Source: Pholiota molesta (lineage: Eukaryota > Basidiomycota > Agaricomycetes > Agaricales > Strophariaceae). Taken from it: 64,000 nt of DNA. Positions 37,480 through 43,173 of this stretch are shown in pieces (the first letter of the stretch is position 1; each line of letters starts with the position of its first letter). The notes beneath the pieces were generated by a model that worked only from the letters and a program-made list of their open reading frames with translations, ran no database searches and was not told the DNA's origin. Location of the stretch: contig JACGCK010000011.1 in NCBI GenBank assembly GCA_014925825.1, positions 124,001 through 188,000 of the forward strand. Reading direction: 5' to 3'. The position numbers were made by a program, and so were the translations under genes.

Positions 37480-37571
37480 AGTTGGAGGAGCGGGCGATGG
37501 GCGACCACGACGACACGCAAAAACTCGGGACACCACGGGCTTTTCCGGTCACAGTCCGCGTGGGAATCCAG

Positions 37572-37674
37572 CCTCTGCTGCGCTGCTCAAGTTTGGCAAG
37601 GACATGAAGTCCAAAGAGTAGCAGTAACCGGGGTCCATGTGGATCCCAATAGATTGGCGAGGAGATAGTGGCTA
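37572..37674 (-). repeat. Split direct repeat B2 (3' terminus)
   Basis: 103 nt, copy of B1. Its outer edge at 37572 is the 3' terminus of the element and lies 92 bp from the OSCP start codon. Confidence 0.88.
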
Positions 37675-37765
37675 ATACAAGTGTGTATGATAATACCAAG
37701 CATGTACGTGACGAGACAGAGATAACGAAGTAAGAACTTGAAAAAGAAGGGAGCAGGAGGGTGGG

Positions 37766-38251
37766 CGAAAGAAAAAAGGCTCAAAACTACGAGGAAAAAC
37801 AGTAAGTAAATGTAAATACTTTTGAGCCCGGAGGCGAGGACGAAGTCCTAAGAGAAATCCAGCAAGGAACATACCAAATGAGTGATTAATGGAATATAAG
37901 ATAGATTAAGAGGGGCGAAGCCTCGAAGAGATTAATCACTGTGCAAGAGGTGTAATGTTCAGTGCTGGAAATGAGGATGAAGCGCGGGGCGCTTACCTGT
38001 GCTGAGATGTCGAGATGGGAGTCTGAGGACAAAAGCAGCACAGGTGAGAAAGAGCTGAAGGCCGAAACCTTTTCCTGACTAAGCATCCGCTAGAATTTAG
38101 CACTAAGACAGAAATTCGGCACACCATTTTGAGTGCGTACGAGCGGTGCTCGGCACAAGGAGAGAGCGAGCGGAGCTCGAAGGTAGAAACTCTGAGTGGG
38201 CTCAGAGGCCTACGGAATGTCTCCCTACCCTCGGAATCCGCATTACGACGA
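37766..38251 (-). repeat. Split direct repeat A2 (3' copy, carries an intron)
   Basis: 486 nt, i.e. A1 plus exactly 88 nt. The extra segment is 37787-37874 (minus strand, GTATGT...CGTAG). The outer end at 38251 abuts B1. Confidence 0.9.
37787..37874 (-). other. 88-nt spliceosomal intron inside repeat A2
   Basis: Begins GTATGT, ends TTTTTCCTCGTAG. It is exactly missing from A1, whose sequence reads CACTCATTTG directly joined to TTTTGAGCC. In a transcript starting in an intron-bearing A1 this intron would lie in the 5' leader just upstream of gag. Confidence 0.85.
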
Positions 38252-39432
38252 CCTCTGCTGCGCTGCTCAAGTTTGGCAAGGACATGAAGTCCAAAGAGTA
38301 GCAGTAACCGGGGTCCATGTGGATCCAATAGATTGGCGAGGAGATAGTGGCTATGAAGGGTGAAGTTGTTGCTGAGGGGTGGTGGTGGTGAAGAATGATG
38401 GAAAGCGAGGAGCCAAGAGGTGAAGTTAAAGGTGAAGGCGGAGCCGTAGAGAGGCGAGCTGCTGCTCGGCTCGGATTGTAGGATTGTCCGAATGTAGATC
38501 TTCCATGCCTGAGATGACCACCGTCCGATAGCTTGAATGACGTCTTCAGAGAGGCCCAGGCTTGCATAGAATGTTGCACCACCCGCACGGGCAGAATGCC
38601 CACCAAAGTCCCTGCTCAGAAGGCTGAAAAATCGTGCATCAAACCAAGAGCGCTTGGGGTGGGAACCATCCTCGCGAATGAAAAGAGCAAGACGACCAAG
38701 ATGTAGGGCATCACGGCGAGAAATGTACTCAAGAAGGAGAGTGACAGGATCTGCTACATCCTGAGTATGGTGAAGGATGTCCGTACCACGATAGAAGGGG
38801 TCAGCTTTGTGGTAAGGAAGGCGATATAGAACACGACCGGCTGTGAAGACGAGAGAGTCGCGCTGAATAACTTTGCGCCAGTCGAAAAGATCTCTATTGT
38901 TCTTCTGGACCAGCTCACCAGAGCGGTGGCATGCATAAAAGCAGCAGGATAAGATGGTGGCAAACAAAAAGTCGTCGTAAGAGTTGGAAGATCGAGCGAC
39001 GAAAAGGAAGGCCTGAAGATGGGCAGGCCGCAGAGGAAGCTTACGATGCACACCATCTGCACGGACCTTCTTTGAACCTCGAATAGTTGCTTTGACAAGA
39101 GGGTGGCTGCGGTTGTCATCGAAGTCCGGGTAAATGTCCGAGAGGAAATGACGGACACCAGTGAGATATTTCGGGGCAGATGCGATGAATATTGAAGTGT
39201 AAGCAACATATCGTGAAAGAGTTTGGGGAGTGGGTTCGATAGAGAGACCATGGCTGAGACAGAAGGAGATGTAATCGCGTGCGCCGGTCACATATCCCTT
39301 CACTGTTGACTTCTCAATGGCATTGACCTGTAAATGGACAGTACGTTTGTCGAGATCAGCCAGATCCATGAGTGGGCGACCCTTTCTCGGAGAGAAAGAC
39401 CCGCCCAGGGTGCTCAAAAGCACGCCTTCCAT
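37993..39432 (-). CDS. Ngaro tyrosine recombinase
   Basis: From an ATG at 39432, which overlaps the end of pol by 19 nt, to a stop at 37993 (479 aa). Core-binding region KSTVKGYVTGARDYISFCLS; catalytic box I Arg in ACHRSGELVQ; box II GGHSARAGGATFYASLGL with the H-x-x-R pair; GRWSSQAWKIYIR with the nucleophilic Tyr. It would insert the circular cDNA instead of a DDE integrase. About the last 120 codons run through repeat B1 and into A2, so the C-terminus is encoded by repeat DNA; the Tyr lies upstream of the repeats. The frame stays open further upstream (to 39795), but the ATG at 39432 is the natural start. Confidence 0.88.
   Translation of the reverse strand: MEGVLLSTLGGSFSPRKGRPLMDLADLDKRTVHLQVNAIEKSTVKGYVTGARDYISFCLSHGLSIEPTPQTLSRYVAYTSIFIASAPKYLTGVRHFLSDIYPDFDDNRSHPLVKATIRGSKKVRADGVHRKLPLRPAHLQAFLFVARSSNSYDDFLFATILSCCFYACHRSGELVQKNNRDLFDWRKVIQRDSLVFTAGRVLYRLPYHKADPFYRGTDILHHTQDVADPVTLLLEYISRRDALHLGRLALFIREDGSHPKRSWFDARFFSLLSRDFGGHSARAGGATFYASLGLSEDVIQAIGRWSSQAWKIYIRTILQSEPSSSSPLYGSAFTFNFTSWLLAFHHSSPPPPLSNNFTLHSHYLLANLLDPHGPRLLLLFGLHVLAKLEQRSRGRRNADSEGRETFRRPLSPLRVSTFELRSLSPCAEHRSYALKMVCRISVLVLNSSGCLVRKRFRPSALSHLCCFCPQTPISTSQHR
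38252..38353 (-). repeat. Split direct repeat B1
   Basis: 102 nt starting CCTCTGCTGCGCTGCTCAAG on the plus strand; nearly identical to B2 (37572-37674) with one C fewer in a CCC run. It lies inside the 3' part of the recombinase reading frame. Confidence 0.88.
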
Positions 39433-42400
39433 CGCGCCGGCAGGAGTTCCCTTGGTGGGGAGAAAAGGCGGACGCGGTCTGCGGGAAATTTGCTCCGATA
39501 CTCGTCCAGAAGTAGACGAGACAGGAGATCGGCACGGATATTCAACTTCCCAGGAATATGCCGTACTCGTAAATCCATCCCTGACTCGAGGATGATGCCA
39601 GCCACTGCAAGCAGCGGGGCGTTGTGAATGGACTCGTTTGCATGAAGAGTGTTGAATATGCTGACGGAATCCAGACTGTCGGTATGAATGAGCAGTCTGC
39701 GAGGAGGTTTGGGAAGGGAGGCGACATGGTGGATGGCGGAAAGGATAGCGACCAATTCTAAGAAGAAGATGTCGATTGTGATGTTCAGAGGGCAAGGAGC
39801 CAGCTGGTACATGAAACCGCGGCCAGCATAGGTGAAACCCATCCCAAGTTTGAGGCTAGCATCAGTCCACATAACCATGTCCGCCTCCGAATCATCCCAC
39901 ACCCCATCATCGATGAAACGAATCCCAGAACACTTAGGGATTACAGATGCGAGCCATGAGAGGTCCGCAATAACCTGTTTGTTGAGAAAGATGCTCCCTG
40001 AAGCCAGTGATTTTCCACTCGTCTTCCGGTAGAGTTCGGTGAGAGCGGGACGGCCCCATGGCAAAACATTCAATAGCCAATTGATGTGACCACCGAGACG
40101 TTGCCATTCACGCAATGGGAGTTTGCGATCTTTGGCCGAAATGAAAGAATTGATACGTTCGATGATGTCGGTGATAGATGAAGGAGGAAGGGACAAGGAG
40201 CCGTCGTTGGGGTTAACCCAGAAGCCGATGATTTTCAAGACATCCCCATGTTCCTGCTTCTTGTCCTCGAAAGGACAACCAATGGCTTCCCAGAAAAGGA
40301 GGAGCTGTACTTGACGCCGGGGGCGAAGCATGCCGTGGAAGAAGATGAGGTTATCTGCAAAGTCCCAACCATAGAAGTCATCCATATAAACGAAGAGGCT
40401 GAGAAGACCCAGCTTTCGAACACCCAACCAGCACAGCAAGCCTGAGACAGCACACCAGCAACGAGGCGAAGCTCTGTTCCCAAAAACAAGCCGCCGTACG
40501 ATGTGGAGAATGCCGTCGACGCCCACAACCTGTCGTAGTTGAAAAATGGGATGTGCTGGAAGGTTGAGAAATGCTGAAGCGACGTCGGACTTGAAACAGA
40601 CCATGGAACGGCCTTTGTTGGCGGAACGTGCCTCCCGCAAAGCCTGACCAAAGTCATGCATATCGTCATAACGAACCTTTGCTTCGGCTCGAGGAATTCC
40701 ATCGTTGATTCCGGAACCGCTGTGGTCTGTGATGACACGAGCCTTCTCCTTCTGCCAGACTACGAACATAGGTGATCTTTTCATGCCCGGCAAAAGGTCG
40801 GATATGGGAAGAGGTTTGGACCAGCGGTTGGCAGCAATCTCCTTGTCACGGAAAGCGCGGATTGCTTCAAGGTCTGCTTCCTCAGAGGAATAGGTCTCCT
40901 TGGAATCAGAAAGGAGTTCCTCGGCCCAATCGCCCTCGTCGAAAGGCCAGAACCCATAACGCAGGCCATCCAACACTGATTTGACGAATGGCTGATTCGG
41001 ATGATCATGCAACATGCGCTCGAGCATGTCGACATTGAAGGGTGTTTCCACCCTGATAGATCCCTCCATAGCTTTAAGTGAAGCTTGAATGGCGGGGTCG
41101 TTGAGAAGATGAGTGGGAGGTGAATGAAGTGGTGGTGCGGTTTCGGTGTAAAGAGCAGCAGGAGAGAGAGTTGGCGAATTCGAGTCGGTCCATGCAAACC
41201 GACGACGAAAACGCGGGACCCCGTCGAGAGGTTGAGCCTTGCGCTTCAGGCCAGGCGACGGGTTAGAAAGGGTCTTAGGCCCTTCCTGCCGAACCCGAGC
41301 TACTTTCTCCAGCACCTCCGCTCGTTCCAGACTTTCCTTTGTTGAAGGCGTCCCGCTTAGCTTGGAGGAGGATGTCGCAAGTGGAGTTGTCCCGTGCTCG
41401 GTGTTTAAGACCACACTCGCTACAGATCCCATGCAGCCTTCGGTTAGGGCAAGGATCACTACACTTGCCGAAGTTCCAATTTTGACAAGGAACTGTGCGA
41501 ACTTTCGACTGCTGCCCAGAAGAAAGGCCCGATTGAGACCGTTTTCCAAGGATGGATGTGGATGTGGAGGCACGGAAGAGCTGTGACAACAGCGAGAAGT
41601 GATAGTTGGATTCGATGTCCAAACGGAATGGGCTCTTCGAATAGCGATCTCGAACTTCGAGATCAAAATCGATTGCAGACTTTGGATCTGGTGCTGCGCG
41701 GAACATATTGAGCATATATTGGTGATAAGCAGCGAGCTCGTCCGTCCGATGCCGATAAACCATGCGGACTCCAGCGCTCCAAGCGCTGAAGACACGAGAC
41801 CATTCTGACTCAGATTTAAGGGGTTTGCGAGCCGTTGAACTGTCCTTCTTGATGAGGGAAAAACCGCCAGCAAATTCCCGTGGATCATCATTGTGATCAA
41901 ACCCACGGTCCATGGAGGCATGGAGTTTCTCAAAGTTGACAAAATGGTCTTGAACGATGAGTTTCCAGATGGAGCGGGGGATCGGATCCAGGAGAGGCTG
42001 AACCTGCAACATGTCAACAAGGTTGTCAATCGTCTTCTCCGAAGCAAGAGCTCGACGAAGCTCCCAAGTGGTCTTGACATGCGGATCATCCACATTAACA
42101 CTGCATAACTGCTCGAGATGGGGTGCGAGAGCGAGGACATGGCTGGGGAGTGAGAAAGACTCCGATGGAGATGGCTTGATATTGAACAACTTGGCAAGAT
42201 CTTCGGCTGACAAGCCAGAGGAAGTTGGCTCGCGCAACTTGGGAGTGATATGTTTGAGCTTGGCCTGGAGGACTGCCCAGGCCGCAGACTCAGTGGCCTT
42301 CTTCCTGGAAGCTTCGAGGCGAGCCCGTGCAGCAGCTTCAGTTTCGGCTCGCCGAGCACGATACTCCTCGATCTCGGATTCAGTGAGGCCCTCCGGTGTA

Positions 42401-42725
42401 TTCTCGCGTTGATCCGATGTATGGGTTCCATCGTCAGCGGGGTCGACCTGCTCGGGGCCGCTTCGCTGCTGATCGAGGTGTTGTTCCAGGAGATTGACAT
42501 AATCTCGGCCCTCGCCAGGGGTGGCCCCAAGTTCTTGTAACTTCTCCAAGAATTTATCGGAAGGGAAACGACCTTCGACAACGTCGTTGACGAGAGACTT
42601 GAAGCCTTCGACTCGAAGTCGTACATCTTCGACTTGACTGCCACCAGAGGGAGAACCGCTCGTAGTGCCAACTGAGCTGCCGCTCGCGGGTGCACCGCTC
42701 GCGTCGCTATTTGGAGGATTGACAT
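39414..42725 (-). CDS. Ngaro reverse transcriptase-RNase H (pol), overlapping gag
   Basis: Open from the ATG at 42725 to the stop at 39414 (1103 aa). The first roughly 483 codons lie in the +1 frame of gag and have low-complexity composition; the recognisable protein starts near 41270. RT: palm motif A (CFKSDVASAFLNLP), the YMDD box (FVYMDDFYGWDF), then the thumb (WQRLGGHINWLLNVLPWG). RNase H: MWTDASLKLGMGFTY, FLELVAILSAIHH and LIHTDSLDSV supply the D-E-D residues, followed by HIPGKLNIRADLLSR. Expression could be by frameshifting from gag, leaky scanning to the nearby ATG, or reinitiation. All catalytic residues I looked for are intact. Confidence 0.88.
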   Translation of the reverse strand: MSILQIATRAVHPRAAAQLALRAVLPLVAVKSKMYDFESKASSLSSTTLSKVVSLPINSWRSYKNLGPPLARAEIMSISWNNTSISSEAAPSRSTPLTMEPIHRINARIHRRASLNPRSRSIVLGEPKLKLLHGLASKLPGRRPLSLRPGQSSRPSSNISLPSCASQLPLACQPKILPSCSISSHLHRSLSHSPAMSSLSHPISSSYAVLMWMIRMSRPLGSFVELLLRRRRLTTLLTCCRFSLSWIRSPAPSGNSSFKTILSTLRNSMPPWTVGLITMMIHGNLLAVFPSSRRTVQRLANPLNLSQNGLVSSALGALESAWFIGIGRTSSLLITNICSICSAQHQIQSLQSILISKFEIAIRRAHSVWTSNPTITSRCCHSSSVPPHPHPSLENGLNRAFLLGSSRKFAQFLVKIGTSASVVILALTEGCMGSVASVVLNTEHGTTPLATSSSKLSGTPSTKESLERAEVLEKVARVRQEGPKTLSNPSPGLKRKAQPLDGVPRFRRRFAWTDSNSPTLSPAALYTETAPPLHSPPTHLLNDPAIQASLKAMEGSIRVETPFNVDMLERMLHDHPNQPFVKSVLDGLRYGFWPFDEGDWAEELLSDSKETYSSEEADLEAIRAFRDKEIAANRWSKPLPISDLLPGMKRSPMFVVWQKEKARVITDHSGSGINDGIPRAEAKVRYDDMHDFGQALREARSANKGRSMVCFKSDVASAFLNLPAHPIFQLRQVVGVDGILHIVRRLVFGNRASPRCWCAVSGLLCWLGVRKLGLLSLFVYMDDFYGWDFADNLIFFHGMLRPRRQVQLLLFWEAIGCPFEDKKQEHGDVLKIIGFWVNPNDGSLSLPPSSITDIIERINSFISAKDRKLPLREWQRLGGHINWLLNVLPWGRPALTELYRKTSGKSLASGSIFLNKQVIADLSWLASVIPKCSGIRFIDDGVWDDSEADMVMWTDASLKLGMGFTYAGRGFMYQLAPCPLNITIDIFFLELVAILSAIHHVASLPKPPRRLLIHTDSLDSVSIFNTLHANESIHNAPLLAVAGIILESGMDLRVRHIPGKLNIRADLLSRLLLDEYRSKFPADRVRLFSPPRELLPARWKACF

Positions 42726-42732
42726 TGGTCAT
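41275..42732 (-). CDS. Ngaro gag-like protein
   Basis: 485 aa from the ATG at 42732 to the stop at 41275. N-terminal Ser/Gly/Pro-rich, then an Ala/Arg/Glu-rich helical segment (EEYRARRAETEAAARARLEA), a capsid-like central region, and a Cys/His cluster near residue 430 (CQNWNFGKCSDPCPN, then CSECGLKHRARDNSTC) that probably binds RNA. It would form the particle in which reverse transcription occurs. The frame is fully overlapped by the pol frame. Confidence 0.85.
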   Translation of the reverse strand: MTNVNPPNSDASGAPASGSSVGTTSGSPSGGSQVEDVRLRVEGFKSLVNDVVEGRFPSDKFLEKLQELGATPGEGRDYVNLLEQHLDQQRSGPEQVDPADDGTHTSDQRENTPEGLTESEIEEYRARRAETEAAARARLEASRKKATESAAWAVLQAKLKHITPKLREPTSSGLSAEDLAKLFNIKPSPSESFSLPSHVLALAPHLEQLCSVNVDDPHVKTTWELRRALASEKTIDNLVDMLQVQPLLDPIPRSIWKLIVQDHFVNFEKLHASMDRGFDHNDDPREFAGGFSLIKKDSSTARKPLKSESEWSRVFSAWSAGVRMVYRHRTDELAAYHQYMLNMFRAAPDPKSAIDFDLEVRDRYSKSPFRLDIESNYHFSLLSQLFRASTSTSILGKRSQSGLSSGQQSKVRTVPCQNWNFGKCSDPCPNRRLHGICSECGLKHRARDNSTCDILLQAKRDAFNKGKSGTSGGAGESSSGSAGRA

Positions 42733-42775
42733 TAAGTAAGACGTTGATGGGCGAGGATACCGAGGTGCAAGGTGT

Positions 42776-43173
42776 CGAAAGAAAAAAGGCTCAAAACAAA
42801 TGAGTGATTAATGGAATATAAGATAGATTAAGAGGGGCGAAGCCTCGAAGAGATTAATCACTGTGCAAGAGGTGTAATGTTCAGTGCTGGAAATGAGGAT
42901 GAAGCGCGGGGCGCTTACCTGTGCTGAGATGTCGAGATGGGAGTCTGAGGACAAAAGCAGCACAGGTGAGAAAGAGCTGAAGGCCGAAACCTTTTCCTGA
43001 CTAAGCATCCGCTAGAATTTAGCACTAAGACAGAAATTCGGCACACCATTTTGAGTGCGTACGAGCGGTGCTCGGCACAAGGAGAGAGCGAGCGGAGCTC
43101 GAAGGTAGAAACTCTGAGTGGGCTCAGAGGCCTACGGAATGTCTCCCTACCCTCGGAATCCGCATTACGACGA
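42776..43173 (-). repeat. Split direct repeat A1 (5' copy, intron-less)
   Basis: 398 nt. Matches A2 (37766-38251) base for base as far as I can read, except that it lacks the 88 nt found at 37787-37874. Its outer end (43173) is the 5' terminus of the element. Probably contains the promoter and 5' leader; gag starts 44 nt beyond its inner end. Confidence 0.9.

Follow-up and report, generated by a model that had tools for sequence, protein, structure and literature searches.

A stretch of 64,000 nucleotides (nts), hereafter the window, belongs to a fungal genome assembly of 65.6 Mb in 625 contigs and carries a retroelement whose A repeat occurs twice, without an intron at the 5′ terminus (A1) and with one in the internal copy (A2). 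The question raised by this locus is how two repeats of a single element came to differ by an intron, and what the difference says about the way such elements rebuild their ends. For tyrosine-recombinase retrotransposons this rebuilding has been modelled, and in the account given for DIRS-1 it is incompletely proven (PMC5633606, excerpted text). An intron present in only one repeat of a single copy is a natural tracer of the part of A1 that comes from the processed 5′ end of the RNA. The same tracer also shows that A2 was not overwritten by spliced A1 sequence in the same cycle.

Structure of the element and its host

The element lies at 37572-43173 on the minus strand, in the order A1, Gag-like ORF, RT/RNase H, tyrosine recombinase, B1, A2 and B2. 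Its features are as follows.

42776..43173, minus strand: A1, 5′ terminal repeat, 398 nt, intron absent, junction between 42797 and 42796
41275..42732, minus strand: ORF 1, Gag-like by position, 485 aa, ATG 43 nt downstream of A1
39414..41240, minus strand: Pol part, RT with YMDD motif near 40388, within a longer open frame (39414-42725)
37993..39795, minus strand: open frame with a tyrosine-recombinase-like motif, HxxR...W...Y, from 38598
38252..38353, minus strand: B1, directly joined to A2
37766..38251, minus strand: A2, internal copy of the A repeat, 486 nt, intron present
37787..37874, minus strand: 88-nt intron GTATGT...CTTAC...TCGTAG, in A2 and absent from A1
37572..37674, minus strand: B2, 3′ terminal repeat

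The split direct repeats were found in the order of Ngaro elements (A1, ORFs, B1, A2, B2); B1 is joined to A2 without a gap, and A2 does not abut B2 but is separated from it by 91 nt. Relatives of Pol numbered 313, and identity was 56-86% among the 120 that were listed, one of which, from Mycena pura, is named as reverse-transcriptase domain-containing. ORF 1 has relatives in Laccaria, Phlegmacium, Jaapia, Amanita and Pleurotus among the named records. A Pfam search of the element proteins returned zero matches at E 0.001, and with the threshold raised to E 10 it gave only sub-cut-off hits to RVT_thumb (E 0.058) and Phage_integrase (E 0.13); comparison of Pol with solved structures yielded no match. 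We take YMDD and HxxR...W...Y to be the motifs of the RT and the tyrosine recombinase. Methyltransferase, protease and DDE integrase had no Pfam match in a search that barely detected even the RT and the recombinase. In the test for target-site duplication, which covered five elements of the family described below (the split element C567/C60 lay outside it), 4 had no common flanking word longer than 6 nt. By its layout, the element would be a Ngaro-type tyrosine-recombinase retrotransposon.

The host is a mushroom-forming fungus, and the adjacent gene for the ATP synthase OSCP subunit is closest, among named records, to those of Pholiota, Hypholoma and Flammula (82-85%). A distance of 92 nt (37480-37571) separates the end of the element from the putative OSCP start codon downstream; both have the same orientation, and a promoter and intron carried by A2 could serve this host gene. 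The recombinase frame of the window copy continues across B1 into A2 (37993-38460), while in three related sequences (C235, C60 and C163) the last long frame listed, assumed to be equivalent to that of the window, stops 74-75 nt before B1.

The two A repeats differ by exactly one intron

In coding orientation, which is the minus strand of the window, A2 consists of 377 nt, an 88-nt stretch (GTATGT...TCGTAG) and a further 21 nt. Removal of exactly the 88 nt at 37787-37874 gives A1 with an identity of 398/398 nt, and when 85-87 or 89-91 nt are removed instead, the match to A1 fails after at most 380 nt. The initial annotation, which described A2 as A1 plus 88 nt running from GTATGT to TAG, was thus right to the base. 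At the corresponding place in A1, between 42797 and 42796, CACTCATTTG is joined directly to TTTTGAGCC. The intron begins 377 nt into A with 21 nt of A remaining, the Gag-like start follows 43 nt after A1, and the splice signals GTATGT and TCGTAG are accompanied by a branch-like site, CTTAC. When all gaps of 40-150 nt possible in the window A2 were enumerated, only 13 of the 43,401 placements (0.03%) began with the 5′ splice-site consensus and finished in YAG. This count and the exact splice-site endpoints rule out a random deletion.

A search with the pattern of the spliced junction, CTCATTTGTTTKRAGCC, gave a sole match, the A1 of the window; the pattern cannot match C235 because that element has one T fewer. 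The intron itself carries an upstream ATG (within GTATGT) whose frame continues into Gag in C567 and meets a stop codon in C388, C590 and C163; we take this as coincidence.

Intron states in six related elements

The related copies were collected by searching the host genome with the A2 region, which gave 15 matches, namely 12 A repeats (two per element) and three B pieces that were left out. This makes at least six elements, the search counts being lower bounds, and the same 12 A repeats were returned when the diverged repeat of C163 was used as the query. A pattern made from the exon ends had 13 matches, 10 of them in five of the six elements, C163 being too diverged for it; the others were C1 (exact, and unrelated on inspection) and C345 and C606 (one mismatch each).

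The intron is present in both A repeats of four elements (C388, C590, C567/C60 and C163) and is missing from A1 while present in A2 in two, the window copy (C13) and C235. No element (0/6) has it in A1 only, and none (0/6) lacks it in both. In C235, the stretch absent from A1 measures 89 nt, again from GTATGT to TCGTAG, and the rest of its A1 and A2 is identical over 396 nt. Each of the two absent introns ends at the last base of TAG and is flanked on both sides by the bases of its own group. The absence of the leader intron from one repeat alone is therefore real and exact, and it is found in two sub-families. The initial annotation had allowed that other copies might show the 88 nt as a random indel with different endpoints, or that the difference might be a misassembly; both gaps, of 88 and 89 nt, prove exact at the splice sites, and the recurrence of exact junctions in two sub-families makes misassembly very unlikely.

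C567 and C60 most likely belong to a single element that another transposon has cut in two; their A1 equals A2 over 486 nt, and both equal the A2 of the window. At the break (L009 position 4260 and L011 position 4857) the inverted ends CATCAGCAAAAC...GTTTTGCTGATG are found, which the assembly leaves unbridged.

The inside of the element is 99.2% identical to the window copy in C388, 98.9% in C567 and 98.8% in C60, and C235 and C590 are 99.57% identical to each other. The window group and the C590/C235 group are 88% alike inside, and C163 is only ~73% identical inside to the full-length elements. The siblings with both introns are thus 98.8-99.6% identical to the copies that lack one, so both losses look recent. 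In C163, 33 of 77 aligned intron positions differ from those of the window, and despite this divergence GTATGT, CTAAC/CTTAC and a CTAG end are retained. Because so distant a relative has both intron copies, the intron is old and was lost from A1. The earlier proposals that the parent carried the intron in both repeats and that A1 lost it through spliced RNA are both supported, the former by the four elements with two introns, which include the most diverged one, and the latter by exact GT-AG absences of 88 and 89 nt in two sub-families. A gain of the intron in A2 of the window copy, which has nothing in its favor beyond the two-state difference itself, is ruled out by C163, C388, C590 and C567/C60, and we regard its probability as practically nil: both repeats carry the intron in 4/6 elements, the outgroup C163 among them.

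Several other features of these copies were recorded. The A repeats of the window and C590 groups are ~93% alike, whereas the coding inside is less so, at 88%; those of C163 are 80-81% alike in local matches and 74% in alignment columns, the inside being 73%. The base preceding the A1 terminus TCGTCG is T at all six left ends (43174 in the window), and G stands at that position at all six internal B1-A2 junctions. C590 has the usual A1 end and matches just 21 nt of B2, and its flanks carry a 13-nt duplication, AACGCGCGAACGT (L012, 1700-1712 and 7339-7351). A flanking duplication is not expected from a tyrosine recombinase, and C590 may owe its insertion to a different route that used a linear copy.

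Apparent exchange of sequence between A1 and A2 across the intron

In the 377 nt before the intron there is not a single substitution between A1 and A2 in any of the six pairs, the only differences being single-base gaps, three in C388 and one in C163. The intron likewise shows no substitution between A1 and A2 in all four elements that have it twice, and 16 of its 88 positions differ between the two groups. In the last 21 nt, the pairs of the window, C235, C590 and C567/C60 are identical by direct comparison, and gapped alignment gives 0-4 mismatches, mostly shifts in T-runs. The intron of C388 has two bases unlike those of the window, C567, C60, C590 and C235, and both A repeats of C388 have them, so that sequence seems to have been exchanged recently between A1 and A2 across the intron in this lineage; C388 is rich in single-base gaps and is possibly error-prone sequence, which weakens its evidence. 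Exchange otherwise has a recent look, which would make it frequent but not obligatory, and the state with the intron in A2 alone would be short-lived. The direction from A2 to A1 appears favored, because exchange mostly from A1 to A2 should accumulate copies without any intron, of which 0/6 were found, a count that comes from six elements and that selection for unspliced genomic RNA would equally produce.

Other Ngaro-like families

Thirteen further loci, with RT 36-40% identical, were taken from 76 listed matches (72 of 120 candidates were scored, and the matches of the six elements themselves are included). An A1/A2 pair was obtained at 8 of the 13, and seven of these pairs are gapless; in the eighth, C555, ~780 nt of other DNA lies inside A1, and the two pieces overlap by 8 nt. 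C1 yielded only a 67-nt piece, and no usable A pair came from C24 (the first of two), C289, C135 or C62. Since a short outer exon might have escaped BLAST, the 3′ edge was scanned separately; no one-sided gap of 30-200 nt was found beyond it in the eight pairs, while the window element, used as a control, was detected. An intron scan of seven of the eight A2 repeats (C76 left out) returned only two weak candidates, in C24b and C95. The eight pairs are themselves without a clear intron in A, and an intron dimorphism of the window type is absent from them; among the families examined, that of the window is the only one with a clear leader intron in A, so that six elements remain the whole sample for the dimorphism. 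A search for Gag in viral contigs found no relative, and the single hit there was a match of 19 bases (L078).

Probable loss of the A1 intron by leader splicing

The best explanation, and in our judgment a probable one, is that the intron left A1 when an RNA with a spliced 5′ leader was reverse-transcribed, a reading drawn from the sequences compared here. An old spliceosomal intron near the inner edge of A would lie in the 5′ leader before Gag by virtue of A1, and again near the 3′ end of the RNA by virtue of A2. Transcription would start in A1 on the outer side of 42797, and the leader intron would be spliced out while that of A2 stays unspliced, or else A2 would derive from another RNA molecule that escaped splicing. 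In reverse transcription the spliced leader would then supply the inner part of A1, and A2 would be made on its own unspliced template, so that the outer, untranscribed end of A1 alone would need to be rebuilt, from B1-A2. Two separate losses would be the simplest history, and whether there was one loss or two, A1 is the repeat that changes. If the repeats were equally prone to loss, A1 rather than A2 would be affected in both cases with a chance of 1 in 4, for n = 2.

A counterpoint is that the A2 intron, if carried by the same RNA, should be spliced as readily as that of A1, and its retention is unaccounted for. RNA folding offers a candidate reason: GGGCTCAAAA in the intron is predicted to pair with TTTTGAGCC, which opens the following exon (37766-37876), and the stem encloses the branch site and the 3′ splice site (z -2.6, with 2/200 shuffles as good). 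Its paired bases, judged by eye, also match in the C590 group, unlike in C163, and our guess is that such a stem could slow splicing. Just upstream of the intron, an inverted repeat, GTGATTAAT...ATTAATCAC (37878-37942), is also predicted to form a stem (z -3.0). A second intron-like stretch of 58 nt, GTAAGC...GCACAG (37939-37996), and a weaker one of 102 nt in A are kept in both spliced A1 copies, which implies either that they are no introns or that this part of A1 lay outside the spliced RNA. Between 37990 and 37500, none of the six poly(A)-like motifs scanned was found.

In the scheme that is said to go back to Cappello in 1985 and to Goodwin and Poulter, the RNA reportedly runs from a start inside the first repeat to an end in the last one, the internal junction is said to rebuild and join the missing ends, and rebuilding from B1-A2 is reportedly needed only for that portion of A1 which precedes the transcription start. 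It follows that the inner A1, coming from the RNA leader, may be intron-less while A2 retains the intron, and the dimorphism would be permitted provided that transcription starts outside the intron and that the A2 intron escapes splicing. The initial annotation argued that the two repeats could not differ if A1 were always copied from A2. This holds against obligatory copying of the last ~109 nt of A, which is excluded for the cycles that produced both A1-minus copies, in either direction between the two repeats, but it does not hold against the scheme just described, which permits the difference.

Within the splicing account, the normal genomic RNA could be the unspliced one, giving elements with two introns, and the A1-minus copies could be occasional leader-spliced by-products, with A2 being no reservoir. 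We give this version, which resembles ordinary retroviral logic, a little less than an even chance. It agrees with the 4/6 elements that have both introns and with the lack of any sign that the A1-minus state breeds on, no such copy having another as its close relative among the six, but 2/6 is not rare, and taken alone it leaves the identity of A1 and A2 across the intron unexplained. The other version, close to the suggestion of the initial annotation that the 3′ copy may serve as an intron-bearing memory, has A1 often lose the intron and recover it from A2 in a subsequent cycle; we consider it possible but somewhat unlikely. The intron has outlasted the ~27% divergence of the family, is missing from A2 in 0/6 elements, and in C388 has two private bases common to both repeats, a mark of recent exchange, all of which would suit a reservoir; yet the data do not fix the direction of exchange, the sample is small at six elements, and the intron would survive equally well under selection for unspliced genomic RNA. 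More tentatively still, A2 would be a protected master copy, with A1 regularly losing its intron by splicing and receiving it back from A2, and with the hairpin at the branch and 3′ splice site perhaps keeping splicing incomplete so that both forms persist. If true, the repeat structure of the retroelement would itself provide built-in intron restoration.

Other explanations than direct leader splicing are less probable. A recombination event after insertion, between A1 and a cDNA made from spliced RNA of the element, predicts the same exact junction, but would require an extra step in both cases, and in each copy A1 otherwise equals the A2 beside it (over 398 and 396 nt), so that we think it improbable. 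Slightly less credit is given to a single old loss from A1, inherited by both A1-minus copies, with the siblings having regained the intron from A2. The same repeat is hit in both copies and exchange between A1 and A2 does occur, as this requires; it must nevertheless invoke one loss and at least two regains in place of two losses, and an intron-less A1 that tracks A2 everywhere else through 12% divergence. The assembly, with its repeats, its 625 contigs and the error-rich C388, might raise the suspicion of an artefact, but an artefact would not choose splice sites, nor produce exact junctions at two places with different sub-family bases, and we hold it to be very improbable. A larger set of copies, drawn from further strains, could allow the tracer to help choose between the replication models by sequence alone.

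Comparison with known systems

Ngaro elements of Agaricomycotina, present in many Basidiomycota (Muszewska et al. 2013, PMC3783388, excerpted text), have the same arrangement of A, ORFs, B, A and B with gag, RT-RNase H and tyrosine recombinase, and differ from the window element, as far as the excerpted text describes them, in that here the A repeat holds an intron and its two copies are unlike. The word "intron" is absent from the main texts, as distinct from the supplements, of PMC3783388, PMC4157794, PMC3266345, PMC6681497 and PMC9210276. A search by titles and the opening of abstracts, with subscription literature, original Ngaro papers included, mostly outside its scope, returned no report of an intron differing between the repeats of Ngaro or DIRS copies. 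Each ingredient is known; the literature searched contained no case of a single Ngaro copy whose two A repeats differ in an intron.

DIRS-1 of Dictyostelium offers a likeness, since its missing repeat ends are proposed to be rebuilt on an internal template and a circular DNA is proposed as well, a scheme that experiments have incompletely proven (PMC5633606, excerpted text). It differs in having inverted repeats and an internal complementary region in place of split direct repeats, and the excerpted text mentions no intron in the repeats (PMC5633606). Penelope-like elements are retroelements reported to keep or move introns, but they have a different RT lineage and a different endonuclease, and their intron retention is ascribed to an antisense or possibly unspliced template; the excerpted text describes no single copy whose repeats differ in an intron (PMC3846280).

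The closing comparison is with ordinary genes. Genes can lose introns precisely when spliced RNA is reverse-transcribed, the removal being exact at the splice sites. Compared with such RNA-mediated loss, the present case lies within the terminal repeat of a retroelement, where the intron-bearing twin 4.9 kb away serves as an internal control.
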